This document shows, in pieces, positions 7,757 to 59,601 of a DNA stretch of 64,000 nt (positions within the stretch are counted from its first letter, which is position 1; every line of letters starts with the position of its first letter). Under the pieces are notes generated by a model that was not told where the DNA came from, did not search any database, and saw nothing but the letters and a program-made list of their open reading frames with translations. A program made the position numbers and the translations under genes. The DNA comes from Candidatus Puniceispirillum marinum IMCC1322 (GTDB lineage: Bacteria > Pseudomonadota > Alphaproteobacteria > Puniceispirillales > Puniceispirillaceae): positions 1,922,001 to 1,986,000 of the forward strand of contig NC_014010.1 in NCBI RefSeq assembly GCF_000024465.1. The letters are read 5' to 3'.

Positions 7757-7790
7757 CCACCGATTTTCCCTGCGGGGATATAGCCGGTGG
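7757..7790 (+). promoter_or_regulatory. Inverted repeat covering the relaxase start codon
   Basis: CCACCG at 7757-7762 pairs with CGGTGG at 7785-7790, and an inner hairpin (TCCC/GGGA around TGCG) lies between them. The GTG start at 7787-7789 sits in the outer stem, and the purine-rich ribosome-binding site GGGGA lies in the inner one. The structure could restrain relaxase translation. Alternatively it is part of an origin of transfer, since relaxases often bind inverted repeats close to their own gene. Confidence 0.4.
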
Positions 7791-10700: not shown

Positions 10701-10843
10701 CAACGCATGAGGCTGAATATGGTGAGACGGTTCGGCATGAACCGACAAGCGAAGACGGATCAATTGTTACGCGTGAGAGAGAGCCGGAGCCGACAGAAGA
10801 AAAAACCAAGGAACGAGACATAGGCATGGAGATGGGGCTGTGA
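7787..10843 (+). CDS. traA: MobF-family conjugative relaxase-helicase (TraA/TrwC-like)
   Basis: This 1018-residue protein would nick and unwind plasmid or element DNA for transfer. The N-terminal TrwC-type relaxase domain at 1-300 shows candidate catalytic tyrosines 17, 23 and 24 and the metal-binding His motif PQLHSHAV at about residues 171-178. A superfamily 1 helicase follows: Walker A GRAGTGKT at about 470, Walker B IIVVDEAS, VLVGDTRQL, and the C-terminal UvrD-like STAHGAQGQT near 860 with VEISRARDE. The acidic, Pro-rich tail from 925 to 1018 looks unstructured. The GTG start is forced by an in-frame stop six bases upstream, and MVAS is the usual opening of this family. No coupling protein or secretion genes are near, so the element would need a helper. 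The stop overlaps the next gene. Confidence 0.92.
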   Translation: MVASFSSLGSASATTGYFEKDGYYARDDPEHRQASFWYGRGAEELGLAAPRDDPDARARHIDAEDFRSILEGYVPDTDIRLGHKRDGEHKHRPGFDLTLSAPKSVSLAALLHGDKRVIAAHDAAVKATLDHVEQNYLQVRIHDPATGRKPRFNAPHLIAGVFRHEASRNLDPQLHSHAVIANMVRDNEGKWRSVEPTEIFQNKKLLGAFYRNELAGNLIELGYKLDPLQLGTMQSFEISGYDKALRDAFSTRRQDILKYMDERGWEKNEKMAQRAALITRGRKNEPDRALMHAQWGERLAELQRDGIGLGITTPRRTAALAERVAAMNTPDMRNEIAQGALAWALAHLEERKTVFTHPELVATALSQTPGKTGLDEIETGLTGLKNSGRVIDAVIPDRRSDRAMAVLTTDRAIETERDILQRLEHGRGGGGSVPVTRDLEQTLTSGQLTSGQQDAIRTILQSDDKIIGIQGRAGTGKTHMLNTVVDLAEDAKIFGLAPTASAARTLEAEAQIPAGTLQGFLMRNAGLADGSMDPARVATIKARLDGAIIVVDEASLASAVEMRDLLQITDKLDLQRLVLVGDTRQLNGVGAGAPFRLMQQAGMETASMRDIVRQRDPLLKDAVHEASLGRGEAALEMLKESVIETDKQSLSIEAAEQWLELGDDERAATLLVAPMRHQRDEINEHIREALVDDGTIHGDVMEITRLDSYCMTRAQKQDPANYQAGDKVVFAVDSNRTGLKANEIYTVADHDERFVTLVDGDGEMRCFDPGGGIVTRRDIASRLDVFEPVEMSLQAGDHIRWTRNDNARGLINARQAEVTDITSEQGIQSVHMRTNDGRTLSLDHDDPQLGHCDYAFASTAHGAQGQTMDRVIAVMDSDHVALSNQKTFYVEISRARDEVTIVTDDRLQLADTLASNSGEMASALEAIGEVTTREAPAAPALDVNHDRVTDIATAEMTPTEPMLERYDEPPPPTHEAEYGETVRHEPTSEDGSIVTREREPEPTEEKTKERDIGMEMGL

Positions 10844-12436: not shown

Positions 12437-15400
12437 ATGCCATTCGTCAGCACTAATAGCGCGAGATTCGACACCACCACAAACGCCTATCAACTGACCA
12501 TCGCCGAAAACAGCGCCGTCGGCACTCTTATCGGCAGGATCGCGTTCGAAGGTGAAAGCGGTGCTGTCGGCAGCGTCTATTTCAACAAGTCCGGCGCTGA
12601 CGCGGCGAAAATCCGTATTGAGCCCGACGGCTCTATCTATGTCGCCTCGGACGAACCCCTGAATTATGAAGCCGTTGGCGGGCCACCGGTACTGGATGTT
12701 GATTTTTCCGTGCTGTTTATCGGTTCGGACGGCTCTGTTGAACAGAGTGCCACCTCCGGGTCCCGCGTAGCGACAACCGATGTCGATGAAGGGCCGACCT
12801 TGCGCGTGGAAGTGGAGACCGATCCGTTCGATGAACATGTGGTCGACAGGAACGGCATCACCGACACCACGGCCTTTGCCAGCCTCACCGGAGAGGATGA
12901 GGATGACGATACGGTGACCTACAGCCTGTCCGGCGATCATGCCGGGTTGTTCCATGTCGTCGATAACGAGGTGCGGCTGAAAGATGTCACGACATTTGAT
13001 TTCGAGACGCTGGGTCCCTCGATCGACCTGACCGTCACTGCCGCATCGACCGGAGCCGGGGGCGGCAGACAGACCACCGAACAGACCATCACGATCACCA
13101 TCAATGATGTGAATGAACCGATTATCTGGAACCACGCCCCGAAAACCTTCACCCTTGCCGAGAACAGCAACGCCAGCACCCCTGTCGGCAGCGTTTCGGC
13201 GCAGGATGGGGATGGTGATCCGGTCAGCTACAGCATGTCGGGCGAGCACGCCGACAAGTTCGATATCGACCGCGACACCGGCGCGATCACAGTCAAGACA
13301 GGCGCGGTGCTGGATTATGAGGAATTTGCCGCCACCAACGGCGTCTTCACCTTTCAGGTTCACGCCGCCGCCAATGGCCCGGAGGGACGCACCAGCGACG
13401 AGGAACAGACCGTCACCATCAATCTGACGGATCTGAATGAACCCACCGGCTGGAATCACGCGCCGAGGGCCTTCACCCTTGCCGAGAACAGCGTTGGCGG
13501 CACCCCCGTCGGCGCTGTATCGGCGCGTGACGGTGATGGTGATCCGGTCACCTACAGCCTGACGAATACCCTGGCCGGAAAGGAAGACAATGAGGCCGGA
13601 AAATTCCAGATCAACACCACAACCGGCGCGATCACGGTCAGGGACAATGCGGTGCTGGATTACGAGGCGCAGGCCGGCGCACCGCTGAGCTTCAAGGTCG
13701 TTGCCATCGCGGAAGGTCCGGACGGGCGGACCAGCCGGGCGGAGCAGGAGGTTACAGTCACCCTGTCGAATGTGAACGAGCCGATCTCCTGGAACCACGT
13801 CCCGCGGACCTTCACCATCGCCGAGAACAGCACCGGCAACACACCCGTCGGCGCGGTGACGGCGCGCGACGGTGACGGTGATCCGATCACCTATACCAAG
13901 TCGGGTGACGATGCTGACAAGTTCGATATCGACCGCGACACCGGCGCGATCACGGTCAGGGACAATGCGGTGCTGGATTACGAGGCACAGGCTGGCACGC
14001 CGTTGAGCTTCACCGTCATCGCCACCGCCAGCGGGGCGGACGGGCGGATCAGCACCTCGGAGCAGCAGGTCACGGTTCACCTGTCCAACGTGAATGAACC
14101 GATTATCTGGAACCACGTCCCGAAAACCTTCACCCTTGCCGAGAACAGCAACGCCAGCACCCCTGTCGGCAGCGTTTCGGCGCAGGATGGTGACGGCGAT
14201 CCGGTCACCTACAGCATGTCCGGCGATCACGCCGACAAGTTCGATATCGACCGCGACACCGGCGCGATCACGGTCAGGAAAGGCGCGGTGCTGGATTATG
14301 AGGCATTTGCCGCCACCAAAGGCGTCTTCACCTTTCAGGTTCACGCCGCCGCCAATGGCCCCGATGGTCGCACCAGCAATTCATCACAGACCGTCACCAT
14401 CGATCTGACGGACCTGAATGAACCGACCGGCTGGAATCACGCGCCGAAAACCTTCACCCTTGCCGAGAACAGCAACGCCAGCACCCCTGTCGGCGCGGTG
14501 TCGGCGCGCGATGGGGATGGCGATCCGGTCAGCTACAGCCTGTCCGGCGTCCATGCCGACAAGTTCGATATCGACCGCGACACCGGCGTGATCACGGTCA
14601 AGAAAGGCGCGGTGCTGGATTATGAGGGTTTTGCCGCCACCAACGGCGTCTTCACCTTTCAGGTTCACGCCACCGCCAATGGCCCGGACGGGCGCACCAG
14701 CAGCGGCGAACAGACCGTGACCATCGATCTGACCAATATAGACGAACCCCCGACATTCGTTGATGCCGCCGGACAGGTCATAATGTCCGACACGGCCGCG
14801 GTCGATGAAGGCCAGACCGGTGCGGGGCTGGCCGCGCTGGCGACATTGCGCGCAGTCGATCCCGATGGTGATCCGGTCCTTGATATCTATGTCACCTCGC
14901 ATGCCAATCTGTTCCACAAGGTTGGCGATGAATTGCGCCTGCGGCCCACGGTTGAGCTGGATTATGAAAACCTGCCGGATGACGCGGTGGATGGCGTCAT
15001 TCCGGTGCGGGTGACGGCGGTCAGCCGGAAGCCGGGCCAACTGCCGAAACTCACCCATATGACCGTGAATGTCGAAGTCGGGGATGTTGGACCAATCGAC
15101 AGCGTCAGCATCGGCACCGCCGAACACCCGAACATCGTGCAGGTGGATGCCGCGGTTGGCGACGTTGTCGGCCGGGTGGCGGCGTCATCACCAACCGGGG
15201 ATGCCATCACCTATGGCCTGACCAACGCCGATAGCAGCGTATCGCGATATTTCACCATCGGGGATGATGGCACCATCACCATGAAGGCCGGCATTACCGA
15301 TCCGGTGTTTCTGTTGCGCGGTTACGTTCCGCTGACGGTGACGGCCAGCGCCGGCGGCGAGAGCGAGAGCCGGGACATAACCATCCAGGTGAACAGCATC

Positions 15401-17277: not shown

Positions 17278-20200
17278 CTACAGAATCGGAACGTCATGTC
17301 CGGGCTGGTCGAACCAGTCCTCAATCTCGGCATAGAGGCCGTGATAATCCGTCCCCGGAATGCCATAGAGGAACTGCAGCGCGTTGATGTCGTTCTGCGT
17401 GATGGTGCTTTTTTCCACCGGACCATAGGTCATGATGCTGTTTGATGTATTTTCTTCATCCGGGGTTTTTCCGAAATGTCCCTGTTTTGGCGGGCCGGTA
17501 TGGGTAGACGAATCCGTATAGCCAAACGGATGAGCAAGACCCAACACATGCCCTATCTCATGAATATAGGTTGAAATATGAATTCCTAGTCCCGTACTTA
17601 CCCCGCCCCCCCACCGGACCAGGCTTGCAAAGCCCCCTGAAGACCCAGAATTTTTATTGATGGAAAACTCCAACGCCCCCAACGAATGGGCATTATGCGC
17701 CACCTCAATGAAATCGATAGTGAGGAATGTTTCATATTCGGCCAGCGCGCGTTCCACCTTCGCCCGCGCCGCGTCAATCGTCTGCTGGCTGTTCAACCGC
17801 TTTGTGTTCAGCGACCATGACATATGAAGCGTGCTGCCATCGGGCGGTGTCCACCAAGCCTCGCCATCGAGCAGATATTTCAGATATTGTGTCTGCGTGG
17901 CGGTTTCCTGCGGCGTCAGGCCGGAACGATAGTCGCGGAACCAGTCATCGATCAGCCCGGCGATGCGCTCCTTCAGAACCTCCGAATCCATCCGCAGATA
18001 ATGGTATACCATCCCGATCGAATCGCCGCGGGTGGCTTCGGTCCGCTCCACCGTCTCGCCATGCGCGTTCACCACCGGCAAATCCTGCACCGTCAGTGCC
18101 AGATCGATGGTCTCAACCGTGCCGTCGGGCGCGGTGCGGGTGAGTCGCAAATCATAGGTGCCATCGCCCCCCACGTCGCGGTCATCCTCGGCATCCAGCA
18201 GGTGATAGTCGCCCGGGTCCTGTTCCCCGTCGCCATCCGGATCATAAGGCACGAACCAGATTTTCCCCGTCGCCGCGTCCACCCGGAAGAATTGATTGTC
18301 GGGCGCGCCGGCCGCCGGTGCCATCGTGAAGACACCCGTGCCATCCAGATCGATGATCGGTTTTGTCAGCGGGTGGTTTTCATGGATTTCCCGCGCCAGG
18401 TTGCGGGTTGCGGGCGTGGGCGGTGGCGGCGCGGGCGTGGTCACGGTGACGGGATCGCTGGTGAAGCTCCGCGTGTTGCCGAGGCTGTCGGTGACGGTCA
18501 AGATGGCCCGCCATTCGCCGGCCTCGCCCACACCCGGGGTCACGCTGTTACCGGTGACAGGCCGGCCGTCATCACCCGTGACCGGCACGCCGTCACGGGT
18601 CCAGGTGACGAGTTGCGAGGCGATGCCGTCATCATCGCTGGCGCGGGATGTGGCCGTCAGCGCCTGGCCTGTCCGCGGTGACGCCGGGCCGGTGACCGTC
18701 ACCGATCCGGTGGCCGGGTCGTCGGCATTGGTCAGTTGGAGAGTGAGTATGCGCCGAACGCTATGGCCAGCATCGTCTGTCGCGGTGATCCGAAGGGTGA
18801 TCACGCCGTTCGGATTGTTGGGGTCCTCATAGTCGAGCTGTTTATCTGGTCTGATGATCAGCTGATTGTTCTGTAGCGCAAAACGTTCATCAACCTCCCA
18901 TTCACCATCCCGCTGGCTTTCGACCCGGATCTGGTCAAGGTCATGATTTGGGTCAATGACTAAAACTCTGATACCGGTGTTGAGGGAACGTTCGGTGCGT
19001 TCGTCACCCACAGTTTCCATGATAGCTTGATGTTCGTCATTTATTGTGATGTGTGGTGGTTTGGATGGGGCAGCGTGCTGTCTGACATCCTCCGGATCAA
19101 GAGGGTCAAAAATAACGATTTTTGAAACAGCGGTTTTGCTAAATGTTGTGTTGCCAGCACCTCTGACATTGGGAAAATACAGCGCAGAAATGGTGAATTG
19201 CAATTCAGCAAGACCGTTCACACCTTCGGCATCGAGATCGACATCTCTGCCAAGGAAAAGAATGCCTTCACTGCTAAGGCGCAGCAGGTGGCTGTGCTTG
19301 CCGCCAAGTGTATACAGCGTATAGCCGGGTGATAGATTCGGGTTCAGGTGATCCCCATAGCGCACTTTGCCGATAATGTGATAGTCATCGACAGTTTCCG
19401 GCAATGAAAACACGTAAGCATTATCTTCGAATATGCCGGTCTCGGTGCTGAAAAACCGGATATTCTGTCCAGGATATTCGGTTACTGGCGCAGAGGATGA
19501 TGGTGTTGGATTTGATGTGCCAGATCCGGTTACTGTGAATTCCTGTCGTACCCATTCATGTGTATTGAAGTTGTTGTCATGAATAAGCACGGTCAGCACA
19601 TATGTTCCAGGTGTGCTGGGCGTGAAAGATTGCGATCTGGATACTGGCTCGGTGCGGGTTTCGTGTAGCCACAAATATGTGTATTCAAGCGTGCTGACAT
19701 CCGAATCATGAGCGTCTATCTCTGCAGTAAGAGATGTGCCTGTTTGAACCGATCCATTGCTGAGCCCTGTAATCGACAGGCTGTTCACGATTATCGGTTC
19801 ATCCGCATTGGTCAGCTGGATGGTAAGGTTGCGATAGACGCTGTTGCCAGCAGCATCGGTTGCGGTGATTCGCAGTGCGATTTCGCCGTTTGGATTGTCC
19901 AAATCTTCATAATCGAACTGCTTGCCGGCCTTGACGAATAATGTGTCATTACGCACTTCAAATCGGTCATCGGCCTGCCAGCGTCCATCCTGCTGGCTTT
20001 CGATCCGAATTTGATCAAGATCATCATTCGGATCGCCAGTGATAACGGATATCCCCGTGGGACGCGACGAAACGGTACGTTCGTCCCCCACAGTTTCGCG
20101 AATCATGGTCTGGTCACCATCAATGCCGATATAGGGCGGGGCCGGTGTCACGGAGTCCGGTTCGCTGTGTGGATTGAGCGGATCAAAAATAACAACGCGT

Positions 20201-23200
20201 GAGACAGCCGTCCTGGCAAACTCCAACGTTCCGTTTTCCCTGTCGTGGGGCCAAAAGAGTGCGGAAACAGTAAACTCCAGTTCAGCAAGGCCGTTCACCC
20301 CCTCGGCATCGAGATCGACACCCCTGCCAAGTTTGAGAACACCATCATTTCCGAGGCGCAACAGGTGCCGGTGTTTGCCGCCAAGTGTATAAAGTGTTCG
20401 TCCCGCCGATTCATCAGGGTCAAGATGGTCGCCATAACGCACTGTTCCGATAATGTGATAATCCTCGTCAGTTTCCGGCAGTGAAAACACGTAACCATTG
20501 TCCTTGAATACTCCGATCTCGGTGCTGTAGAAGCGGGCGTTCTGGCTCGGATGCTCGGTTTCTGGTGTAGTTGGTGGTGTAGTTGGTGGTGGGGTTGGAT
20601 TTGAAAGCGCGGGCTCGGTTACCGTGAATTGCTGTTGTGCCGATTTATAATCATTAGAATTGTTGTCACGAATAAGCACAATCAGAACATATGTTCCGGG
20701 TTTACTGGGTGTGAAAGATTTCGATCTGGACAATGGCCCACTATCGGCTTGGTCTGGCTGTGCATATAGATAATACCATACATAGCTGTAGTTGAGCGCG
20801 TTGACATCGGGATCATGAGCTTCAACCACCGCTGTAAGAGACGTGCCTGTTTGAACCGATCCGTTGGTGAGCCCTGTAATCGATAGGCCGTTCACGATTG
20901 TCGGTTCATCCGCATTGGTCAGCTGGATGGTGGTTGTTCGCGAAACTGAATTGTGGATTTCGTCGCGTGCGATGATCCACAGGGTGATTTCACCGTTTGG
21001 ATTATCCTGGCTCTCATAATCAAACTGCTTGCCTTTCTTGATAATCAGTTTGTCCTTTTGAACATCAAATCGGTCGTCAACCTGCCAGCGTCCTTTCTGC
21101 CAGCTTTTGATCACCAGTGAACTAAGGTTGTTATCGACATCACGTACTATCACCGCGATGCCCGTATCGATGTGTTGGGTTACTTCATTGCCAACGGTTT
21201 CGGTGATTTGTGTCTGTTGGGCAGGTAGCCGAATGGTGATGGTGGGCGATGAATCGGCCACGGTAATCGGCTCGCTGAAAAATCGCTCCACATTACCATC
21301 ATTATCCCGTATGTGCAGAATTGCCCGCCAGACGCCTGGTGCATTTGGAATGATTTTGGTGCCAGTCAAAAATGAAACACCTAGAGGATTCTCGCGCACC
21401 GAATACCAAGTGATCCATTGCGCGGCAATACTGTTTTCGCTACTGACTTCGGTGTGAGCTGTCAGCTGCTGACCGGTTAGCGGCGATTCCGAACTGGGGA
21501 CGATGCGAATGGAGCTTATGGTCGGCGCGATATTCGGCGGTGCTTGTAGTGGCGGCGCGGTGACCTCCATATTCTGGCTGTCGATTTCCTGTTGATTATC
21601 GTCATTGTCAACCACGATGGCGACAGCGCGATAGGTGCCGGCGGATGTGGGGGTGAAGCTGCTGCCCTCACCCACCTGAGTGCCGGCACCGTCACGCCAG
21701 ATAAAGGTCTTGCTCTTGATCCCGTCCTCATCGGCGATCGGGGTTGTCTCATGAACCGTCAGCACGGTGTTTGTATTCACGGCTCCCGACAGCTCCGTGC
21801 CATCGGCGGTGATGGCGATTACCCCCGTCGTCGCCTCATTCACGTTGGTCAGGGTGATTGTCACACGCTGTATCGCGCTGCGTGTTGCTGTCTCGTCGGT
21901 TGACGTTGCCGTCGCCGTAATCTCGATTTCATAGATGTTGTCGCGATCCGCATCGCGCGCGGTGTCATGATCCGATTTCGCCGTGAATGTCACAACGCCG
22001 GTTCTGGCGTCGATGTCGAATTTCCTGCCGTCCGTCCCGCCAGTGATGGCATAACTCACCGTACCCGCTGTCGCTGTCGCCTGCGCCGTATAGCCGGTGG
22101 TGGTGCTGCCTTCCGGGATGGAACGCGAGACTGTGCCGGTGCTGGCAAACTCTGGTACCGCCACATCGTTATCCGGATCATTGCGCACGGTCAGCGTGAA
22201 AGTCACCGGGGCAGGATTATCGCCGGTGCCGTTGCCGGTCGCCTGAATGGTTACGCTATGGGTGCCGACACTTAACTGGTCCAGCGTGACGCCGGATGCC
22301 AGATAAAGGTCATACTTTCCGTGCTGACCCGGACCCGCCACCGGCTCATATCTAAACAGGCCGCTGTCCGCCCCCGACAGCGTCAGACCAACCGTGCCAA
22401 GGCCGTCATCCTGAATCGTGATCCGCGCCAGCGCGCCGCCGGGGAGATCGCCACCCTCTTCAACCTGACGGGTTCTCTGACTCAACGACACACTGGTTGG
22501 CCTGGCGTTGGCGGGAACCACAGGCGACGCTTTTGGTGGCGGTGTTGACTCTGTCGGATCAAGCACTTCCTCTTGCGGACCCTGTTCAGGGTCTTCGGGC
22601 GCTTCCTCCGCTGTGCTGAATGACCTTTTCATCAAAATGGCAATCTGCTTGCGCATTTCAGCAACGATCTCCTGAAGGCCTCCTAATTTTGTCTCAATAT
22701 TTCTGATCGTTGAGGTGAGACTCTTGGCAATCTGCTTGATCTTTGCAATGTCCGCCGGTGTGATGTTGGTGGGCCTGCCATCCTCCAGCCAGGCGTTATG
22801 GTTGAGAGGGTCGTAACCATTTGGGGAACGCTCCTTGAGCGCCGCCTCAGTGGCATAACCCTGTACAACCGAATGCGAAAAGGCTGAAATAACCTTGGCG
22901 TTCGCGGGCGCTTTCAGAACCTCTGGCAAGGTGCCAGCATCCGTACCGTCAGGGTTTTTATGGACGACGCCCGCGGCACTGGTATGCGCTATTCGGATAT
23001 TGTTTTTCAGGCTGTCGGGAACAGAACCGCTGTAACGCCCTTGTGCATCGGTGCGGCCAATCAGATAATCCTCGCCCTCCTCCCAGATACCATCGCCATC
23101 ATCGGGATTGAGCTCACCATCACCATTGGCATCGACATAAACAGGCGCGTTTTGTACCGGCGGGTCAAAAACCGACCCGCTAGCCCTCGCAAACCCCTGC

Positions 23201-23436
23201 GTTCCGCCTGATGTTGTGGGGCCACCAGTGTCATCACCTTCCTTGCCAGGTGGTGCTCCCTCCGTTGTAAGGGCAGGTCCACCACCGCCGCCGCCGCAGG
23301 CAGCAAGGATCAGCGCCCAGAAAGACGCACCATAAGGCGTCAGGCTGGTGCTATACCGGCCTGATGGTAATAGGCTATAAGGGCGGTGTAAGCTTCGCTC
23401 AACCAACCCCTGGTTTGATTTGCGCGTTGCTATCAT
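17278..23436 (-). CDS. Giant lipoprotein with cadherin/Ig-like repeats and metzincin protease
   Basis: The 2052-residue protein has a type II signal: a positively charged N-region, then FWALILAAC with lipid-acceptor Cys47 and six glycines. A Ca-site-like DANGDGELNPDDGDG segment follows near residue 105, then Pro/Glu-rich linkers and a cadherin unit near 430-540. A module of about 365 residues is then repeated more than twice (about 740-1570). The C-terminus holds a zinc metalloprotease of the metzincin clan: HEIGHVLGLAH near 1959 and the Met-turn NSIMTYG about 37 residues later, then a serralysin-like NDINALQFLYG. I chose ATG 23436 because GGAAG lies at proper spacing. A TTG 42 bases upstream is the alternative. 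Membrane-tethered serralysin-like enzymes are unusual, since that family is normally secreted. Confidence 0.85.
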   Translation of the reverse strand: MIATRKSNQGLVERSLHRPYSLLPSGRYSTSLTPYGASFWALILAACGGGGGGPALTTEGAPPGKEGDDTGGPTTSGGTQGFARASGSVFDPPVQNAPVYVDANGDGELNPDDGDGIWEEGEDYLIGRTDAQGRYSGSVPDSLKNNIRIAHTSAAGVVHKNPDGTDAGTLPEVLKAPANAKVISAFSHSVVQGYATEAALKERSPNGYDPLNHNAWLEDGRPTNITPADIAKIKQIAKSLTSTIRNIETKLGGLQEIVAEMRKQIAILMKRSFSTAEEAPEDPEQGPQEEVLDPTESTPPPKASPVVPANARPTSVSLSQRTRQVEEGGDLPGGALARITIQDDGLGTVGLTLSGADSGLFRYEPVAGPGQHGKYDLYLASGVTLDQLSVGTHSVTIQATGNGTGDNPAPVTFTLTVRNDPDNDVAVPEFASTGTVSRSIPEGSTTTGYTAQATATAGTVSYAITGGTDGRKFDIDARTGVVTFTAKSDHDTARDADRDNIYEIEITATATSTDETATRSAIQRVTITLTNVNEATTGVIAITADGTELSGAVNTNTVLTVHETTPIADEDGIKSKTFIWRDGAGTQVGEGSSFTPTSAGTYRAVAIVVDNDDNQQEIDSQNMEVTAPPLQAPPNIAPTISSIRIVPSSESPLTGQQLTAHTEVSSENSIAAQWITWYSVRENPLGVSFLTGTKIIPNAPGVWRAILHIRDNDGNVERFFSEPITVADSSPTITIRLPAQQTQITETVGNEVTQHIDTGIAVIVRDVDNNLSSLVIKSWQKGRWQVDDRFDVQKDKLIIKKGKQFDYESQDNPNGEITLWIIARDEIHNSVSRTTTIQLTNADEPTIVNGLSITGLTNGSVQTGTSLTAVVEAHDPDVNALNYSYVWYYLYAQPDQADSGPLSRSKSFTPSKPGTYVLIVLIRDNNSNDYKSAQQQFTVTEPALSNPTPPPTTPPTTPETEHPSQNARFYSTEIGVFKDNGYVFSLPETDEDYHIIGTVRYGDHLDPDESAGRTLYTLGGKHRHLLRLGNDGVLKLGRGVDLDAEGVNGLAELEFTVSALFWPHDRENGTLEFARTAVSRVVIFDPLNPHSEPDSVTPAPPYIGIDGDQTMIRETVGDERTVSSRPTGISVITGDPNDDLDQIRIESQQDGRWQADDRFEVRNDTLFVKAGKQFDYEDLDNPNGEIALRITATDAAGNSVYRNLTIQLTNADEPIIVNSLSITGLSNGSVQTGTSLTAEIDAHDSDVSTLEYTYLWLHETRTEPVSRSQSFTPSTPGTYVLTVLIHDNNFNTHEWVRQEFTVTGSGTSNPTPSSSAPVTEYPGQNIRFFSTETGIFEDNAYVFSLPETVDDYHIIGKVRYGDHLNPNLSPGYTLYTLGGKHSHLLRLSSEGILFLGRDVDLDAEGVNGLAELQFTISALYFPNVRGAGNTTFSKTAVSKIVIFDPLDPEDVRQHAAPSKPPHITINDEHQAIMETVGDERTERSLNTGIRVLVIDPNHDLDQIRVESQRDGEWEVDERFALQNNQLIIRPDKQLDYEDPNNPNGVITLRITATDDAGHSVRRILTLQLTNADDPATGSVTVTGPASPRTGQALTATSRASDDDGIASQLVTWTRDGVPVTGDDGRPVTGNSVTPGVGEAGEWRAILTVTDSLGNTRSFTSDPVTVTTPAPPPPTPATRNLAREIHENHPLTKPIIDLDGTGVFTMAPAAGAPDNQFFRVDAATGKIWFVPYDPDGDGEQDPGDYHLLDAEDDRDVGGDGTYDLRLTRTAPDGTVETIDLALTVQDLPVVNAHGETVERTEATRGDSIGMVYHYLRMDSEVLKERIAGLIDDWFRDYRSGLTPQETATQTQYLKYLLDGEAWWTPPDGSTLHMSWSLNTKRLNSQQTIDAARAKVERALAEYETFLTIDFIEVAHNAHSLGALEFSINKNSGSSGGFASLVRWGGGVSTGLGIHISTYIHEIGHVLGLAHPFGYTDSSTHTGPPKQGHFGKTPDEENTSNSIMTYGPVEKSTITQNDINALQFLYGIPGTDYHGLYAEIEDWFDQPGHDVPIL
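18725..20935 (-). repeat. Two long in-gene duplications of about 1.1 kb
   Basis: Matching landmarks such as the QLTNADEP junction occur at about 18725, 19800 and 20910, spacings of about 1.08 and 1.11 kb. Each unit encodes an ETVGDE...FDYEDxDNPNGEI cadherin-like part, an Ig-like SITGLxNGSVQTGTSLTA part and a YxFSLPET...LYTLGGKH part. The copies have diverged to roughly similar but not identical protein, so this is an old internal duplication within the metalloprotease lipoprotein. Confidence 0.75.
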
Positions 23437-23635
23437 AATCTTCCAATGGCGGCACCTATGCCGCACTATTCGGTTCAACCTAATGCATAAGTTTTAACAA
23501 AACGTTAATTTTACCAATTTTTTTGCTGCATTCAGCCCAGCTAATCACGCCGGATGAACGACGGTTCAAGATGTTTGCGGCGGTTGTCAGATTATCCGCC
23601 AACTGAGCTGGCAATTATGCCTGTCGCGTTAATCT

Positions 23636-49180: not shown

Positions 49181-49243
49181 ATGGATCGCGCCTATAAACC
49201 GGATTTTCCGTTTGGTGGATGCGAATCCGTAGCAAATATATGA
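49181..49243 (+). CDS. Possible 20-codon leader ORF coupled to the giant gene
   Basis: ATG at 49181 follows AAGAGA by four bases and opens a 20-codon frame (MDRAYKPDFPFGGCESVANI). Its TGA overlaps an in-frame ATG of the giant gene as ATGA at 49240-49243. This arrangement would couple translation of the long gene to the leader. There is no other evidence that it is expressed. Confidence 0.35.
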   Translation: MDRAYKPDFPFGGCESVANI

Positions 49244-52200
49244 AAAATTATAGACATGACAAAGAATTCGCTAATGATGAGAAATTAGCTGATACACCCC
49301 CTCTGGTAGTCACTATAAACACTCGGGCTATATCTGCTTTGGCGAGATATTCTTCGTCCGTTTTGTTTGGTTCTAAGCAACCAAAGATGATGAAGCAGGA
49401 TGCTGGCAGAGGCCTCATCTGGACATTATTGGCGATCGGGTTGGCGGCTTGTTCCGACAGATCAGTTTATGATAATAAAAAAACTGATACGCATGGCTAT
49501 GACGATGATCAATCCCAGATTCAGAATAGCGATGATCCTATCAGAGTGGCTGACGGGCCCATAGAAGGGGCGCTTGTCTATGGGCGACGGGCAGACGGGA
49601 GCTATAGCTCGTCACCACTTGGAAAAACCAATTCCAAAGGTGAGTTCACCCCTACATCTGCACAACGTGCCGAATTTGTCGGTTATAAATTTGATCTGAC
49701 AAATGCACGTGATGTGAATAGCGGAAAAGTATATGACAAGGGTGAACAATTAGAAACGCTGGATGATGGCGACATCGCAACGCCCCTGACCACATTGATA
49801 CGGGCTGCGCGAAAGATCGCTGAAACCGATGATGACAACACGACCACTGCTGAGAATGCGACAGAGCAAGTCATCCAAGGTCTTTTCGGTTCTGAGACAG
49901 ATGTAACACTCAAACAGATTCAAGATTTTGAGATTTATCGTGTTGGTGACCGGGATAATGAGATCGTCAAAAAGGCGGTACAGGTGATGGCCACGATCAC
50001 CAAGAAAATGGATGAATCGGGTGGTGCTTCAAGCGAAGCGGTGAATATCGTCAACAATATGGCTATGGCCGCGCAGAAAGTTGGTGCCAGCAAAGGCCAA
50101 GCGCGTGAGGACGCAGAGACCGAGCTCGGGCTTATTTCAGAAAATGATCCGGTCATTCAAGTTTTACTTAATAAGGTCCCAACCGGCGGGGTAACCATTA
50201 CCGGCACGCTGAGGGCTGGAGAGAGGCTGACGGCCGATTTTAGTGCGCTTCGGGATGCTGACGGGATACCGGACCAGGATAGTAGTGGCGGTCTGAGCGC
50301 GGATGATCTGACCTTTCAATGGAAGAAGGATGGCGTCGATATTGCCGGTGCGAGAGGTGAAAGCTATGTGCTGGCGGCTGATGATGTTGGCGGGCAGATA
50401 ACGGTAAAGGTATCCTGGCGGGATGCTGGTGGGACCGATGAGAGCGTGACCTCAACACCGACCGCGGCTATCACCGCAGCTAATCAAGCCCCAACCGGCG
50501 GGGTAACCATTACCGGCACGCTGAGGGCTGGAGAGAGGCTGACGGCCGATTTTAGTGCGCTTCGGGATCGTGACGGGATACCGGACCAGGATAGTAGTGG
50601 CGATCTGAGCGCGGATGATCTGACCTTTCAATGGAAGAAGGGTGGCGTCGATATTGCCGGTGCGAGAGGTGCCAGCTATGTGCTGGCGGCTGATGATGTT
50701 GGCGGGCAGATAACGGTAAAGGTATCCTGGCGGGATGCTGGTGGGACCGATGAGAGCGTGACCTCAACACCGACCACGGCTATCACCGCAGCTAATCAAG
50801 TCCCAACCGGCGGGGTAACCATTACCGGCACGCTGAGGGCTGGAGAGAGGCTGACGGCCGATTTTAGTGCGCTTCGGGATGCTGACGGGATACCGGACCA
50901 GGATAGTAGTGGCGGTCTGAGCGCGGATGATCTGACCTTTCAATGGAAGAAGGATGGCGTCGATATTGCCGGTGCGAGAGGTGCCAGCTATGAGCTGACG
51001 GCTGATGATGTTGGCGGGCAGATAACGGTAAAGGTATCCTGGCGGGATGCTGGTGGGACCGATGAGAGCGTGACCTCAACACCGACCACGGCTATCACCG
51101 CAGCTAATCAAGCCCCAACCGGCGGGGTAACCATTACCGGCACGCTGAGGGCTGGAGAGAGGCTGACGGCCGATTTTAGTGCGCTTCGGGATGCTGACGG
51201 GATACCGGACCAGGATAGTAGTGGCGGTCTGAGCGCGGATGATCTGACCTTTCAATGGAAGAAGGATGGCGTCGATATTGCCGGTGCGAGAGGTGAAAGC
51301 TATGTGCTGGCGGCTGATGATGTTGGCGGGCAGATAACGGTAAAGGTATCCTGGCGGGATGCTGGTGGGACCGATGAGAGCGTGACCTCAACACCGACCA
51401 CGGCTATCACCGCAGCTAATCAAGCCCCAACCGGCGGGGTAACCATTACCGGCACGCTGAGGGCTGGAGAGAGGCTGACGGCCGATTTTAGTGCGCTTCA
51501 GGATCGTGACGGGATACCGGACCAGGATAGTAGTGGCGGTCTGAGCGCGGATGATCTGACCTTTCAATGGAAGAAGGATGGCGTCGATATTGCCGGTGCG
51601 AGAGGTGCCAGCTATGAGCTGACGGCTGATGATGTTGGCGGGCAGATAACGGTAAAGGTATCCTGGCGGGATGCTGGTGGGACCGATGAGAGCGTGACCT
51701 CAACACCGACCACGGCTATCACCGCAGCTAATCAAGCCCCAACCGGCGGGGTAACCATTACCGGCACGCTGAGGGCTGGAGAGAGGCTGACGGCCGATTT
51801 TAGTGCGCTTCGGGATGCTGACGGGATACCGGACCAGGATAGTAGTGGCGGTCTGAGCGCGGATGATCTGACCTTTCAATGGAAGAAGGATGGCGTCGAT
51901 ATTGCCGGTGCGAGAGGTGCCAGCTATGAGCTGACGGCTGATGATGTTGGCGGGCAGATAACGGTAAAGGTATCCTGGCGGGATGCTGGTGGGACCGATG
52001 AGAGCGTGACCTCAACACCGACCACGGCTATCACCGCAGCTAATCAAGCCCCAACCGGCGGGGTAACCATTACCGGCACGCTGAGGGCTGGAGAGAGGCT
52101 GACGGCCGATTTTAGTGCGCTTCAGGATCGTGACGGGATACCGGACCAGGATAGTAGTGGCGGTCTGAGCGCGGATGATCTGACCTTTCAATGGAAGAAG

Positions 52201-55200
52201 GGTGGCGTCGATATTGCCGGTGCGAGAGGTGCCAGCTATGTGCTGGCGGCTGATGATGTTGGCGGGCAGATAACGGTAAAGGTATCCTGGCGGGATGCTG
52301 GTGGGACCGATGAGAGCGTGACCTCAACACCGACCACGGCTATCACCGCAGCTAATCAAGTCCCAACCGGCGGGGTAACCATTACCGGCACGCTGAGGGC
52401 TGGAGAGAGGCTGACGGCCGATTTTAGTGCGCTTCAGGATCGTGACGGGATACCGGACCAGGATAGTAGTGGCGATCTGAGCGCGGATGATCTGACCTTT
52501 CAATGGAAGAAGGATGGCGTCGATATTGCCGGTGCGAGAGGTGCCAGCTATGAGCTGACGGCTGATGATGTTGGCGGGCAGATAACGGTAAAGGTATCCT
52601 GGCGGGATGCTGGTGGGACCGATGAGAGCGTGACCTCAACACCGACCGCGGCTATCACCGCAGCTGCTGAACCCAGCACTCCACCGGCGAATACGGGACC
52701 AACTATTTTGCTTTATATGACAGAAACGCCGGTTCTGAGACATACACAGTCCGAGGCGGCTGACACGGGCTTTATTGTCAGTACGACTGACCCAGATGAA
52801 GGCGATGAAGTCACCTTGTTGGTTAGCGATGAGAGATTTGAGATTGTGAATGGTAGCCTGCGAATCAAAGCCAACCAGACCTTTGATTTTGCAAATGAAC
52901 CAATCATTAGAGTGACAATTACCGCCACAGATCGGAGTGGGACGCCCGACAGGCAGGTTGTCTATGTTATGGCTCCTGAAGAAACCTTACCCAGCCCGGC
53001 ACTCTATACCAAAGAAAGGGATGTGACGGTTCCCGATCTCGCCATATCGGGTGATTTTACGATTGAAGGTTGGATGTATTTTACGACTCGTGGCAATGCA
53101 ATTTCTGATCGAACCGATGGGATGTTCAGGGGGGTGACCGCTTCGGGTGAGAAGATCACGTTGAATTTTCTTGACAATAAGGCGCGGCTATTTATCGGCG
53201 CTAATGCAATGAATCACCTCAAGGCCACAGCAGACGTGAAAGGACAACCACCGGTATATAACCCTGAAAATGACTATGTTGTTTCAAAAAAGGTGGTTGC
53301 TGTGTCGCAGTGGCTGCATTTTGCGCTGGTACGCGAAAATGGCGCTTTGAGGCTCTATCAGGATGGTGAACTGGTCAGTGAAGTCTTGACGACTAAAATG
53401 TGGAGCGCTGATTTTACCCTCAAGCAGATTGCCAAAGGGTGGACCAACGATAGCGGCCTGAATGGGCAGATGGATGAATTTCGGGTATGGAACATGGCAC
53501 GTACTGAAACAGATATTCAGGACAATATGCGTTCGCGTGTCGATCCATCTGATGTTGATTTGTTACGTTATTATAAATTTGATAAGCCGGGTGTTATCAA
53601 GGATTCGATTACGCATGGAACACCGGCTGCAGATGTGACTTTGCCTACCCGTGATGAGGACCTAAAAATTGGTGGTAGTAACGATGCTGAAATTCTGAAC
53701 CCAATCGAAATTGACAATCAGGGGTTTGAGGCGCCAATCCAGATAGGGCTTGTTGATGACGAAATTCCGTTGGATAAATGGGTGTTCACCGGCGAGTCAG
53801 GTACGTTTATGCCCCCAGCTGATGATCTTAACAACGGTGCGCCCGAGGGCCACAATGTGGCATATATCAATGGGCGCGGAGAGATTTCACAAACACTTTC
53901 GACGCTTCTTACGCGGGCAGACGGCGTGCGTTATCTTGATTATGTGCTGAAGCTGACGCTTGGTGATTCCAGTGCAGATATTGGCGATGCTGCCAGTTGG
54001 GAAGTGGCACTTTATGCTGGTGACACGCTGATAGGGCGGTTGACCAGTCAAGATGTGCGATTGAGTAGCGGGACTGTGTCCGAAGCGGTGCTGGTCGTTG
54101 ATGCCGCACGGCTTTACAAACTCAGCCTTCATAAAGCTGTTTATGGACAGAAGCTGAAAATCGTTCTGCGTGACTCAGGTGATTCCGAGGGGTGGATCAG
54201 ATTTGACGATGTACAACTTTATTCACGTGCGTCTAATTTTACGCCACGCCTTGATGACAGTGACGGTGACGGGATACCCAAGATACCCAAATTAAGTATC
54301 GGCGACAGCATCATGCTGGATTTTCAGGCTGCGGCAAAAGCGATTGGTGATAATCCCGCACCAGTCACATCACAATGGGATCCAGATGGCGTGAATGGAC
54401 CAAACGGAAATGTCTGGAATCCTTTTACCATTGGCCCAGGTCACACTTATGGTAGCACATGGACAGCAAAAAAGATTGAAGGTGATGGGATCAGAGTCGC
54501 GAATCTGAAAACAAGTCATGGCATTGTAACGAAGGTAGGTTTGAAAATCACTGGCAAGATAGGTGCTTATAATTCTGGTAGCAACCCGCGACCCAATCCG
54601 AATCATATTGATTCCCTAATCCTAGACCATCATTATTTTGATCTAAAAGGTTTTAAAGCTTATGGCGATAAACGTGTCGCGCCCGATGGCGCGGAAATAA
54701 CTGGTAAAGAAACACATAGCACGCCCTGGATACCCGGAAGCCAATGGGTGCCAACTAATAACAATTGGGGTGCGCGTGGGCCAGTGACCTATAGCTATAC
54801 GAATCTACAGCCAGGTATTTATTCGCTCGAATTCTTTATTAACTCCACAGCACATGCGCCCCCGCGTGAATATATGGTCAATATCAACGGTGAGACCGAA
54901 GCAGGCGGAACAACGTTGAAATGGGTGACAGTGACATCAGAGGTCACTAATCCAGCTCATGGTCGTGGCGCCGCTGATGCCGACAATCGGATTACGGTTA
55001 ATAATGTTGAGGTCGGCCAGGATGGTCAACTTACCCTCAGATATAAGGGGCCAAACGACGCGCAGGGTTCAGATCCCAGTCCGGCCGGAATCATTCTGAC
55101 ATACACAGGAAGGCCGGAAACGCCAAGTGGACAAACCCCTGAACAGGTTGAAGACGCGCGTGCCGCCGAGGCGGATATCACCGACATTCCGCCAGAATCA

Positions 55201-58200
55201 CGTTTTAGCTCCGAGCTGGTGATCCCTGCACTTGATGGTGCGACCGATCTTGAGTTTCTGCCATCCAACATGCCAGGCAAGGAGCATCTGCAGAACAGCC
55301 TGCTGGTCGTGACGCTGGGTGGCAAAGTTTTGAAATATGGTAACCCAAGCGCGGGTGACATTGCCGTGCAAACTGTTCTTGAGATTCCTAGTGCAAATAT
55401 TCTGACTAAGAGTGGCGAACGTGGCCTGTTCGCTATTGAGATAGATCCATCATTCAATCAGAATGGATTTTTCTATCTGATGTATACAAAAGCTGTTGGC
55501 AATGGAAAGCATCTGACCACTGTATCGCGCTTTACCTATAGTGAAACGGAAGAAAGAACGCCAGATAGCGCCAGTATTCTGAGTAGTGAAACGGTTTTGT
55601 GGCAGGAACATGATCCTAATTTTGTGGACAATTATGCACACCAGGGTGGTGGTCTTGCCATCGGCTGGAGTCCAAGCGATGGTAGGGCGAAGCCAGAAAT
55701 TCTGACCGCTGATGATCGCCAGCATTTTAAGATTTTTATCACTACAGGCGAAGAATTTCAGGAGAAAAATTCCCGCAATCTGGGGCATTCAGACGGCAAG
55801 ACACATCGGATCAATCTTGATGGGTCGATCCCCAGTGATAATCCCTATTATGATGCAGATGTGGCAGGTAAATACGACATCAGCAATCCGGCCTCAGCAA
55901 TCGCGAGAACCACATCGGGCACTGTGACCTATGCGATCTCGGATGGAGCGGATAAGGATAAATTCGACATTAATGTCAACACCGGTGTCGTGACCTTCAA
56001 AACGAATTCGGATTTTGACAGCCGGGCTGATGCCGACCAAGACAATATCTATGTCATCAAAGTCCGGGCGACCATAGTGGATGGTTCATATACCGAAAGT
56101 ATAGAGCAGACGGTATCGATCAAGCTAAGTAAAAGCGTTGTCAAGCCCCCGAGTTTTGAGAATAGCGATCCGGTCATTGTTCCCGTCTTGGAAGGTACCA
56201 CCGATACCGACTATACAGCGAGTCACCTCTCGGAAATTCTTGAGAAGCGATTGATGACCATCTGGTCCTATGGATTGCGTAATCCGTGGCGGGCTTGGTT
56301 TGATGATGAAACGGGCATGTTGTTTATCGGCGAGGTCGGTGGCAATAACAATAACGCGGGAAAATCAACCGAGGATATCCATATTGCCTATAAGAATGCC
56401 GATCATGGTTGGATAGGGGATGGCTCGGAAACAACTTTTAATAAAAATGATGGTGGAACGCCACTGTATCTCTATTCTCATTTTAACGGACCGGGACGAG
56501 ATGGTAACATTCTGAATGGCCCTGCCGGTGCCTCGATCACGGGTGGGGTGGTGTATCGGTATAAAGGCGATGGTGAATTCAAGTTTCCAGACGAATATCA
56601 AGGTCGCTATATGTATGGTGACTGGATACGGACTGTGATTCATTCATTAAAGCTGGAACCTGTGGCATCGCCAGTGGCTGGTGGTCATAAAATGAAAGTG
56701 GCTGAAATTAAGGGCGACCAGTTTATGACTAATATGGCTGGTAGGCCATTGGCGATGACAGTTGGGCCGGACGGCGCGCTATATGTCATTACAACGCATC
56801 AGGTAGGTGGTATTTTCGATTTCACCAGCCGTATATTTCGGGTGGTTTTTGGCAATAATTTACCACTTACGGGCACAGGGATTGTTATAGGTGAGGAGCA
56901 AAAGGAATCCGACACAGCCCCACATACTGTAACCTTTACCGCCGATGTCGAGGATCCAGATGGGGCAGATTCGCAACTACGCTATAAATGGTACTTTGAT
57001 CATGGAGGGGACAATAGTCTGGTGGCAGAAGGGCGCCAGGTAACGTATACATATACCAGCCTTGGGGTGTATGATGTGTTGCTTGAAGTTACCGATTTCA
57101 GGGGCAAAGTGACGCGCTTTGAGACCCGCAAAATCAAGATCGGAAAGCGTCCAGAAGTGAGTTTTAGCGAGATCAAGGAAGAAGGTTTGGAAACAAATAT
57201 TCAACCTGATGACTCAACATACCGATTCAAGGCGGGACATGAAGTGCGCCTGAAAGCCACCGCTATTGACCCTGATCTTCCTATTGGTAATCAAAGTTTG
57301 GATTCATCTGACATCAGATGGTCGTCGCAGCTGAAGCATAATGAGCATTCGCATCCCGGAGGTGACGGCGTGATGGATAAGGATGGCTATATCATCTTTT
57401 TCATCCCAAACACAGGGCATGGTTATCCTGGCCCCACCTATTACAGAGTCACGCCATCGATACGCGATGGTTCCGGGATGACCGGATACAATCCATATAA
57501 TTTGAAGGTTAAAAAAACCACACTCGAGCTGGTCGCACCTGGCGATGATTATCAGTTCCTACGCCTTAAATCGCCAGATAATCCCAGTTCCGGATCGCAT
57601 AGGTTTAGTGATGTTGCTGTCGGATTTCTCGATGTGTTTGTGGCACAACCTTTCTATATTGACGGTTTGACAAGGCGTGTATTCTCGCATTGGAAAATCA
57701 ATGGCGTTGATGAAAGGCAAAAGAACAATCCGGTTTTGCTCTATCAAATACCAGATCAAGCCAACTTAAGTTTAGAACCAATTTATGTGCTGGCCAATTC
57801 AGACCGATATTATCTGAGGCTAGATGGGACTACACCTGTATCTCTTGGAAATCAGCCCATTGAACTAAGCGGGGACTTCACCATTGAGATGCAGGTGAGT
57901 ATTGATGAGCCTTTGAACAATAATGACTCACTTTTATTTGGAACAATTACAGACGGTGGAGCACCCAAAACCTTTGATATGAATTTCTACCAGCAACTGT
58001 TTCGCATTTATGACGGTATAAACCATGCCGTGGTGACACAGAAAGTTGAGGCCAATACATGGTTTCATATCGCGCTTGTCAGGCAGAACGACACCATTAC
58101 CGTTTATCTGGATGGAGTGCCCATTAATGCCACAGGCCGTTTAAGTTGGGTCGGAAATGTGACGGTTACGCATATAGGCAAGTCAATTTCGTCGTCACAG

Positions 58201-59601
58201 GATTTCATGGGTAAGATGGATAATATCAGATTCTGGAATACCGCCCGATCCCAGCAACAGATTAATGAAAATAAAGAAAGGGATGTAGAGGCAGACGAAA
58301 ATGGGTTGTTACGTAAATATAGCTTTGATAGCGATTCGAGTCGTATAGTTGACGATACCAATAATTCAAGACCACTTCCCCTTTTTTCGGATGGATCCAT
58401 ATCGATAGACCCTCCTAGAGGGGGTTCTAACGTATTCAAATACTTTCATTTTGATGGTACGAGAGGCATTGATATTCCCGACTGGCAGGTTGCAGCAGAC
58501 CAGGATTTTACCATGGAAACATGGGTTAGGGTTTCCACGCCGCTGTCACCGGTGGATGGCGTATTCTGGGGATTCAAGGATGACTCAAATACAAATTTAG
58601 CAGTCCTTATTAATGCGCGGTGGTGGCGATTTAGGGATCTGGAGTACGCGGAGACGAACCATGGTGATATTGTTAGTGCGGGTAAACCTTTTGAAAAAAA
58701 TCAGTGGGTACATATCGCCCTGACACGCGAAAGTGGTGTTCTTAAACAATATATCAATGGTGAATATTCTGTTTGGAGTAATTTACAAAATAATTCTTGG
58801 ACAGATGCTTTCACGATCACAGATATAGGCAAAGGTTTTTATAATGGCTTCTTTGAAGGTGACCTCTATAACATTCGTTTCTGGAATACAGCCCGAAATG
58901 CAAACCAGATAAAGCAAAATAAACATAGGGAACTGGAAAACGAAGATGGTTTAGCTCGCCAGTACCGTTTTGATAAAGCCAACCATAGAATAATCGATGT
59001 GACCGAAAATGAAAATTCCGAAAACCGCGCCATATCTTTGCCAAGGGATGAGAAAGAAACAGCTTCATCACCACATATTGGTCTGGTCAGAAGCAATGGC
59101 GAGCCACTTACGACCGCAGAAAATCGTCCACCTGTGCCGGTGCCAGACTTTAAGGCTGTACCACACGATACTCCCGCGTTGATTGGTGTTACGGGAAACG
59201 ATGCCGACGACAAGACCCTAGCCAAGAATCTTATTTTACTTGATTATCATCGTATTGAGATCATCAGTGATGATCGCACGCCGGCACAAAAAGAATCTGG
59301 AACCAATGTGGGCAACGTCACAATCGATACGGCAAATAAGAATGTTACCTTTACGCCACAGAATAATTTTCACGGTAAGGTAAAGATTTTTTACAAAATC
59401 ACCGATGCCGATGGTGCAGAAGCGGAAGGCTATATTATGATAAGGGTTGGTGCGCCCCCACCTGATCAGGATTCCAGCCCAGGTGAGGATGCACATAATA
59501 GTGGTAGTTCGGAGTTACTGCCAAGTGTTTCTCCGCTTGTCGAGATGCAGTTCAGTATGCAAGATATGGCGTTGCAAGATATGGCGTTGGACGTTATGTA
59601 G
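49240..59601 (+). CDS. Giant multidomain surface lipoprotein
   Basis: The protein has about 3,450 residues. ATG 49240 overlaps the short leader; 49219 and 49387 are alternative starts, the last giving a compact lipoprotein signal (lipobox LAAC). Counting from 49219: lipid Cys78; a conserved N-terminal region to 315; eight 104-residue Ig-like repeats at about 320-1151; a LamG domain at 1257-1480; a carbohydrate-binding-like jelly roll near 1500-1670; and a glucose/sorbosone-dehydrogenase propeller in two halves (about 1996-2224 and 2343-2547). A cadherin-like segment splits the halves. Then come a PKD domain (about 2554-2647), two more LamG domains (about 2874-3044 and 3074-3260) and a terminal cadherin-like unit. 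It is probably an outer-membrane-anchored adhesin or sugar-processing protein. Whether the propeller still binds PQQ is unknown. Confidence 0.88.
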   Translation: MKNYRHDKEFANDEKLADTPPLVVTINTRAISALARYSSSVLFGSKQPKMMKQDAGRGLIWTLLAIGLAACSDRSVYDNKKTDTHGYDDDQSQIQNSDDPIRVADGPIEGALVYGRRADGSYSSSPLGKTNSKGEFTPTSAQRAEFVGYKFDLTNARDVNSGKVYDKGEQLETLDDGDIATPLTTLIRAARKIAETDDDNTTTAENATEQVIQGLFGSETDVTLKQIQDFEIYRVGDRDNEIVKKAVQVMATITKKMDESGGASSEAVNIVNNMAMAAQKVGASKGQAREDAETELGLISENDPVIQVLLNKVPTGGVTITGTLRAGERLTADFSALRDADGIPDQDSSGGLSADDLTFQWKKDGVDIAGARGESYVLAADDVGGQITVKVSWRDAGGTDESVTSTPTAAITAANQAPTGGVTITGTLRAGERLTADFSALRDRDGIPDQDSSGDLSADDLTFQWKKGGVDIAGARGASYVLAADDVGGQITVKVSWRDAGGTDESVTSTPTTAITAANQVPTGGVTITGTLRAGERLTADFSALRDADGIPDQDSSGGLSADDLTFQWKKDGVDIAGARGASYELTADDVGGQITVKVSWRDAGGTDESVTSTPTTAITAANQAPTGGVTITGTLRAGERLTADFSALRDADGIPDQDSSGGLSADDLTFQWKKDGVDIAGARGESYVLAADDVGGQITVKVSWRDAGGTDESVTSTPTTAITAANQAPTGGVTITGTLRAGERLTADFSALQDRDGIPDQDSSGGLSADDLTFQWKKDGVDIAGARGASYELTADDVGGQITVKVSWRDAGGTDESVTSTPTTAITAANQAPTGGVTITGTLRAGERLTADFSALRDADGIPDQDSSGGLSADDLTFQWKKDGVDIAGARGASYELTADDVGGQITVKVSWRDAGGTDESVTSTPTTAITAANQAPTGGVTITGTLRAGERLTADFSALQDRDGIPDQDSSGGLSADDLTFQWKKGGVDIAGARGASYVLAADDVGGQITVKVSWRDAGGTDESVTSTPTTAITAANQVPTGGVTITGTLRAGERLTADFSALQDRDGIPDQDSSGDLSADDLTFQWKKDGVDIAGARGASYELTADDVGGQITVKVSWRDAGGTDESVTSTPTAAITAAAEPSTPPANTGPTILLYMTETPVLRHTQSEAADTGFIVSTTDPDEGDEVTLLVSDERFEIVNGSLRIKANQTFDFANEPIIRVTITATDRSGTPDRQVVYVMAPEETLPSPALYTKERDVTVPDLAISGDFTIEGWMYFTTRGNAISDRTDGMFRGVTASGEKITLNFLDNKARLFIGANAMNHLKATADVKGQPPVYNPENDYVVSKKVVAVSQWLHFALVRENGALRLYQDGELVSEVLTTKMWSADFTLKQIAKGWTNDSGLNGQMDEFRVWNMARTETDIQDNMRSRVDPSDVDLLRYYKFDKPGVIKDSITHGTPAADVTLPTRDEDLKIGGSNDAEILNPIEIDNQGFEAPIQIGLVDDEIPLDKWVFTGESGTFMPPADDLNNGAPEGHNVAYINGRGEISQTLSTLLTRADGVRYLDYVLKLTLGDSSADIGDAASWEVALYAGDTLIGRLTSQDVRLSSGTVSEAVLVVDAARLYKLSLHKAVYGQKLKIVLRDSGDSEGWIRFDDVQLYSRASNFTPRLDDSDGDGIPKIPKLSIGDSIMLDFQAAAKAIGDNPAPVTSQWDPDGVNGPNGNVWNPFTIGPGHTYGSTWTAKKIEGDGIRVANLKTSHGIVTKVGLKITGKIGAYNSGSNPRPNPNHIDSLILDHHYFDLKGFKAYGDKRVAPDGAEITGKETHSTPWIPGSQWVPTNNNWGARGPVTYSYTNLQPGIYSLEFFINSTAHAPPREYMVNINGETEAGGTTLKWVTVTSEVTNPAHGRGAADADNRITVNNVEVGQDGQLTLRYKGPNDAQGSDPSPAGIILTYTGRPETPSGQTPEQVEDARAAEADITDIPPESRFSSELVIPALDGATDLEFLPSNMPGKEHLQNSLLVVTLGGKVLKYGNPSAGDIAVQTVLEIPSANILTKSGERGLFAIEIDPSFNQNGFFYLMYTKAVGNGKHLTTVSRFTYSETEERTPDSASILSSETVLWQEHDPNFVDNYAHQGGGLAIGWSPSDGRAKPEILTADDRQHFKIFITTGEEFQEKNSRNLGHSDGKTHRINLDGSIPSDNPYYDADVAGKYDISNPASAIARTTSGTVTYAISDGADKDKFDINVNTGVVTFKTNSDFDSRADADQDNIYVIKVRATIVDGSYTESIEQTVSIKLSKSVVKPPSFENSDPVIVPVLEGTTDTDYTASHLSEILEKRLMTIWSYGLRNPWRAWFDDETGMLFIGEVGGNNNNAGKSTEDIHIAYKNADHGWIGDGSETTFNKNDGGTPLYLYSHFNGPGRDGNILNGPAGASITGGVVYRYKGDGEFKFPDEYQGRYMYGDWIRTVIHSLKLEPVASPVAGGHKMKVAEIKGDQFMTNMAGRPLAMTVGPDGALYVITTHQVGGIFDFTSRIFRVVFGNNLPLTGTGIVIGEEQKESDTAPHTVTFTADVEDPDGADSQLRYKWYFDHGGDNSLVAEGRQVTYTYTSLGVYDVLLEVTDFRGKVTRFETRKIKIGKRPEVSFSEIKEEGLETNIQPDDSTYRFKAGHEVRLKATAIDPDLPIGNQSLDSSDIRWSSQLKHNEHSHPGGDGVMDKDGYIIFFIPNTGHGYPGPTYYRVTPSIRDGSGMTGYNPYNLKVKKTTLELVAPGDDYQFLRLKSPDNPSSGSHRFSDVAVGFLDVFVAQPFYIDGLTRRVFSHWKINGVDERQKNNPVLLYQIPDQANLSLEPIYVLANSDRYYLRLDGTTPVSLGNQPIELSGDFTIEMQVSIDEPLNNNDSLLFGTITDGGAPKTFDMNFYQQLFRIYDGINHAVVTQKVEANTWFHIALVRQNDTITVYLDGVPINATGRLSWVGNVTVTHIGKSISSSQDFMGKMDNIRFWNTARSQQQINENKERDVEADENGLLRKYSFDSDSSRIVDDTNNSRPLPLFSDGSISIDPPRGGSNVFKYFHFDGTRGIDIPDWQVAADQDFTMETWVRVSTPLSPVDGVFWGFKDDSNTNLAVLINARWWRFRDLEYAETNHGDIVSAGKPFEKNQWVHIALTRESGVLKQYINGEYSVWSNLQNNSWTDAFTITDIGKGFYNGFFEGDLYNIRFWNTARNANQIKQNKHRELENEDGLARQYRFDKANHRIIDVTENENSENRAISLPRDEKETASSPHIGLVRSNGEPLTTAENRPPVPVPDFKAVPHDTPALIGVTGNDADDKTLAKNLILLDYHRIEIISDDRTPAQKESGTNVGNVTIDTANKNVTFTPQNNFHGKVKIFYKITDADGAEAEGYIMIRVGAPPPDQDSSPGEDAHNSGSSELLPSVSPLVEMQFSMQDMALQDMALDVM
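50176..52671 (+). repeat. Eight tandem 312-bp repeats
   Basis: Eight units in exact 312-bp register begin at 50176, 50488, 50800, 51112, 51424, 51736, 52048 and 52360. Each encodes a 104-residue Ig-like domain starting PTGGVTITGTLRAGERLTAD. They are almost identical even at silent positions. Differences are confined to a few codon choices (RDADG/RDRDG/QDRDG, SSGG/SSGD, KKDG/KKGG, RGES/RGAS, YVLA/YELT, PTAA/PTTA) shuffled between copies. That is the pattern of recent expansion or gene conversion. The array length is likely to vary between strains. Confidence 0.97.
55891..56245 (+). other. Cadherin-like insertion within the dehydrogenase propeller
   Basis: Between the propeller halves (ending near NPYYDADVAGKYD and resuming at IWSYGLRNPWRAWFDDETG) lies a segment with TVTYAISDGADKDKFDINVN and DNIYVIKVRATI, typical of the cadherin-like repeats in the metalloprotease lipoprotein at 17.3-23.4 kb. 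The parts appear in permuted order: the body of the repeat comes first, and its usual opening (PVLEGTTDTDYTAS) comes last, just before the propeller resumes. Confidence 0.6.

Follow-up and report, generated by a model that had tools for sequence, protein, structure and literature searches.

A cadherin unit in permuted order inside the GSDH-like propeller of a giant Candidatus Puniceispirillum marinum protein

The overall explanation that we favour, at roughly two chances in three, is that a surface lipoprotein of the LamG–GSDH–PKD kind gained an out-of-phase cadherin unit in a loop of its propeller, where this unit would likely serve as a binding module. The protein is encoded in the window (the whole 64,000-nucleotide stretch of DNA analysed) by a single giant ORF with the following landmarks outside the propeller.

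49219–59601, + strand: giant uninterrupted ORF of 3460 aa (ORF list, Pfam, repeat comparison)
49441–49452, + strand: lipobox-like LAAC, residues 75–78, after a hydrophobic stretch (sequence)
56902–57135, + strand: PKD domain after the propeller, residues 2562–2639 (Pfam; the Roseobacteraceae relatives have the same arrangement)

The order within the ORF is a lipobox-like N-terminus, eight Ig-like repeats, LamG, an HpiC1-like domain, the GSDH propeller with its insert, PKD, two LamG domains and Big_9. The LAAC motif and the hydrophobic stretch before it suggest that the product may be a surface lipoprotein. The Ig-like repeats, which the ZirU family model of NCBIfam recognises, are near-identical 104-aa units encoded by 312-bp stretches (50169–52652), and their 96–99% identity suggests recent expansion or conversion. 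Pfam places the HpiC1-cyclase-like domain at 53701–54219, and a weak cadherin-like stretch in normal order occupies residues ~1185–1251 (52772–52971). Elsewhere in the window, a gene for a TrwC-type relaxase (7787–10843) hints at an integrated mobile element.

The propeller itself comprises two parts, each bearing a motif aligned to conserved residues of sugar dehydrogenases.

55207–55911, + strand: N-terminal part of the GSDH propeller, residues ~1997–2231, including the native long loop NPYYDADVAGKYDISNPASAIART (Pfam, relatives' alignment, structural alignment)
55639–55641, + strand: His2141 in HQGGG, aligned to the conserved HxGG/HQSG histidine (alignment)
56221–56853, + strand: C-terminal part of the GSDH propeller, residues 2335–2545 (homology, structural alignment)
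56278–56283, + strand: Arg2354-Asn2355 in GLRNPW, aligned to the conserved GxRN motif (alignment)

The Pfam GSDH profile (PF07995) matches in two separate stretches with 82 bits versus a curated cut-off of 25, and the propeller as a whole spans residues ~1997–2545. Structure prediction of this region had been proposed in a preliminary description of the DNA. The AlphaFold2 model obtained is of low confidence (mean pLDDT 54; its shallow alignment held uninterrupted GSDH rows), and in it both halves match PQQ sugar dehydrogenases as a single propeller by Foldseek and VIA-align, with Z 22.4 over 310 residues against 7CGZ (model range 32–547) and Z 19.9 against 1C9U. Two mixed alignments that misplaced propeller segments on the insert were left out after tests of row sets. 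The prediction thus joins the halves and leaves the cadherin opening unplaced (pLDDT ~30–37 in two models from shallow alignments). That the two GSDH stretches belong to one predicted propeller fold running across the insert is well supported by these models. Soluble PQQ sugar dehydrogenases (1C9U sGDH, 2G8S E. coli Asd and 7CGZ) share the fold across both halves, and the His and Arg-Asn motifs near the cofactor, which the residue comparison covered, are kept; unlike the window protein, each is an enzyme on its own, and its loop at the insert site is short.

The insert and its closest homologue are located as follows.

55912–56220, + strand: cadherin insert, one unit of ~102 residues (~2232–2334; each boundary uncertain by several residues) (relatives' alignment, tandem-cadherin alignment)
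55915–56130, + strand: cadherin body, residues 2233–2304 (Pfam, neighbour homologue, insert model)
56149–56220, + strand: cadherin opening PSFENSDPVIVPVLEGTTDTDYTA, residues 2311–2334, behind the body (alignment to the neighbouring-gene cadherin)
21835–22155, − strand: normal-order cadherin of the neighbouring gene (17278–23478, − strand), closest homologue of the insert (sequence search, alignment)

Pfam Cadherin (PF00028) matches residues 2231–2303 of the ORF at profile positions 26–92 of 93 only, with 24.8 bits on the whole protein, below the 28.8 cut-off. With the normal-order cadherin of the neighbouring gene the body shares 52% identity, AlphaFold2 folds it confidently when the insert is modelled alone, and all of the 50 PDB matches listed by Foldseek for this model are cadherin-fold structures. 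The models thereby show the insert body as a predicted cadherin fold of strands C–G. The strand order is permuted and departs from the normal A-to-G succession, so by its sequence the insert resembles a cadherin unit but is no ordinary member of the Cadherin family. Its GC3 is 0.565 versus ~0.45 in the flanks, a difference that hints at a separate origin.

The opening PSFENSDPVIVPVLEGTTDTDYTA and that of the neighbouring-gene cadherin give a gap-free alignment with a score of 46, which was reached by none of 5,000 and none of 20,000 shuffles and is the top non-self match over all window ORFs (49,348 residues; runner-up 36). Against this neighbour opening, the stretch preceding the body scores 15, under the shuffle mean of 17. 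Rejoining the parts in normal order raises the Pfam Cadherin score by ~4 bits (29.2 versus 25.0), past the cut-off, and a generic eight-sequence cadherin profile gained nothing from adding the opening. Because of these small or absent profile gains, the evidence for the opening comes mainly from two sequences, the homologue in the neighbouring gene and a relative of that homologue in a same-family genome (L012). This relative carries an in-frame TAA within its own cadherin opening. The preliminary description, which placed a cadherin inside the GSDH propeller with its body first and its usual opening last, is thus borne out by the Pfam positions and by the opening score. The opening would presumably fold back onto the body and complete a permuted fold. 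Against this, the linker between body and opening has just the length seen in tandem arrays, though the opening must reach back along the whole domain.

Relatives with an uninterrupted propeller, which the preliminary description had also proposed to seek, were found by tblastn against plasmids in Salipiger sp. CCB-MM3 (WP_066111528.1) and Leisingera sp. M527 (WP_260008609.1). Both proteins, from Roseobacteraceae, have LamG before and PKD after GSDH, 42–44% propeller identity and the same long loop, but they are shorter and lack the loop cadherin, the eight Ig-like repeats and the HpiC1-like domain. Their loop thus represents an empty site NPYYDAAVAASYTPSVNTLSAISTSAANLAIDPEGVITTI, and its sequence NPYYDAAVAASYTPSVNTLSAISTSAANLAIDPEGVITTIFSYGLRNP matches the window on either side of the insert (NPYYDADVAGKYDISNPASAIART ... 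ASHLSEILEKRLMTIWSYGLRNP). The loop has ~35 residues in these two relatives and ~144 in the window protein; about 25 further relatives have 3–10, and the second GSDH of the genome itself has 7–8. The best-scoring deletion restoring the relatives' loop removes 102 residues, i.e. about one cadherin unit, instead of the ~118 first estimated; in a shuffle test of the exact insert boundaries 1 of 60 was as good, so that the boundary is not sharply fixed.

The ~35-residue loop of the Roseobacteraceae relatives might suggest that the segment is a native propeller extension merely resembling a cadherin. We consider this hardly credible given the Pfam match and the 52% identity to the neighbouring gene's cadherin, the fact that each of the 50 matches listed for the insert model is a cadherin-fold structure, and the absence of a cadherin from the sister loop; the normal-order homologue in the same window contradicts it as well. 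It is also very improbable that an assembly artefact rearranged a normal cadherin. Eight near-identical repeats lie upstream in the same ORF and could favour such an error, but the genome is a single contig of 2.75 Mb, the junctions are in frame and within unique sequence, and the genome has no second copy of this cadherin.

How the permuted order may have arisen is suggested by the tandem cadherins of another gene.

13214–14512, + strand: tandem normal-order cadherins of another gene, aligning end to end with the insert in a shifted register (alignment)

When the body of one of these repeats is read together with the opening of the next, the pair matches the whole insert, linker length included; the tandem cadherins of a further locus, L014, give the same result. 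Since register and linker length equal those of this combination in tandem arrays, the insert corresponds to one repeat period cut out of phase. Of the earlier proposal of a circular or tandem-duplicated repeat unit, the part that an out-of-phase unit was inserted is well supported by the empty-site relatives and by this alignment. Bacterial cadherin-like domains such as CabC/CabD of Saccharophagus degradans and RapA2 share the cadherin body sequence and fold with the insert; unlike it, they have the normal strand order and stand in tandem outside other domains. Their inter-repeat NxNE-type linker reads SKSVVKPP in the insert.

One can also suggest that the insert is a broken tandem fragment, in which the body folds alone with the upstream propeller loop standing in for the strands it lacks, while the opening behind it is left over from a second repeat and disordered. 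The insert-only model, which folds the body confidently and the opening not, agrees with this, and VIA-align sets model residues 2–94, including the native loop, over almost a whole EC domain. However, pLDDT is under 50 for the loop residues of that model, the upstream loop does not resemble a cadherin opening in sequence (the score of 15 above) and is homologous to the native loop of the relatives, and the insert is close in length to exactly one unit. The filling of the gap by the native loop thus finds faint backing in the models and none in sequence, and we regard a broken fragment as unlikely.

Whole-genome searches at the class, phylum, order and family levels, a sample of ~1,600 genomes and not a census, yielded no second inserted propeller, and a phage search gave no match. 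No relatives came from scanning viral contigs with A1, the insert or the GHRNPQG or GLRNPFR motifs; a scan with the GLRNPWR motif returned usable GSDH rows. At least 21 viral contigs of IMG/VR carry GSDH-like propellers, mostly inside ORFs of ~1000–2700 residues.

The integrin alpha-I domain and the Vibrio sialidase lectin are, like the cadherin of the window protein, folded domains inserted in a propeller. Neither of them is known to be permuted. Permutation and insertion were combined in a circularly permuted beta-lactamase engineered into maltose-binding protein; that construct was made in the laboratory, while the window case is natural. Among the titles and abstracts listed by literature searches on permuted cadherins and on permuted inserted domains there is no evident precedent. 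The preliminary description held domain insertion with both halves kept to be unusual, which does not agree with the ~20% of multidomain proteins given for domain insertions in PMC13114784. Insertion into a domain is itself common, and the uncommon part is a permuted insert with empty sites in sister proteins.

We suppose that a LamG–GSDH–PKD surface lipoprotein took up roughly one cadherin repeat unit from a tandem array or a circular copy. The cut would have lain between the opening (A–B strands) and the body (C–G strands); being out of phase, the unit would have landed body first and opening second, midway along a loop between two propeller blades that was long beforehand. In an ordinary cadherin domain the two ends lie at opposite tips. 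Because the cut falls in one turn, both new ends would lie together, and the unit would fit the loop without pulling the propeller apart. By analogy with known propellers, this loop probably lies on the active face, and the insert may form a small binding module beside it. The protein as a whole would bind polysaccharide or matrix sugars and possibly also oxidise them. The genes adjoining the Salipiger and Leisingera relatives encode a glycosyltransferase, a flippase and an O-antigen ligase, and marine bacteria have cadherin-like domains that are able to bind carbohydrate (work cited in PMC12153261). For these two reasons a polysaccharide-handling surface protein is our best guess; the carbohydrate role of the insert and catalysis by the propeller are putative.

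More tentatively, one can imagine that a natural circular permutation arose together with the insertion, making an end-to-end adhesion module insertable, and that the permuted cadherin forms a folded sugar-binding lid by the active site. Inserted domains need close ends (14.3 versus 29.8 Å, in PMC13114784), which cadherin units do not have, and out-of-phase units of tandem arrays may provide a simple route round this obstacle. The idea is directly testable, since there are relatives with an empty site and the genome itself encodes a normal-order cadherin. The window protein is a clean natural example of a domain rotated and inserted, the rotated unit having a putative fold.
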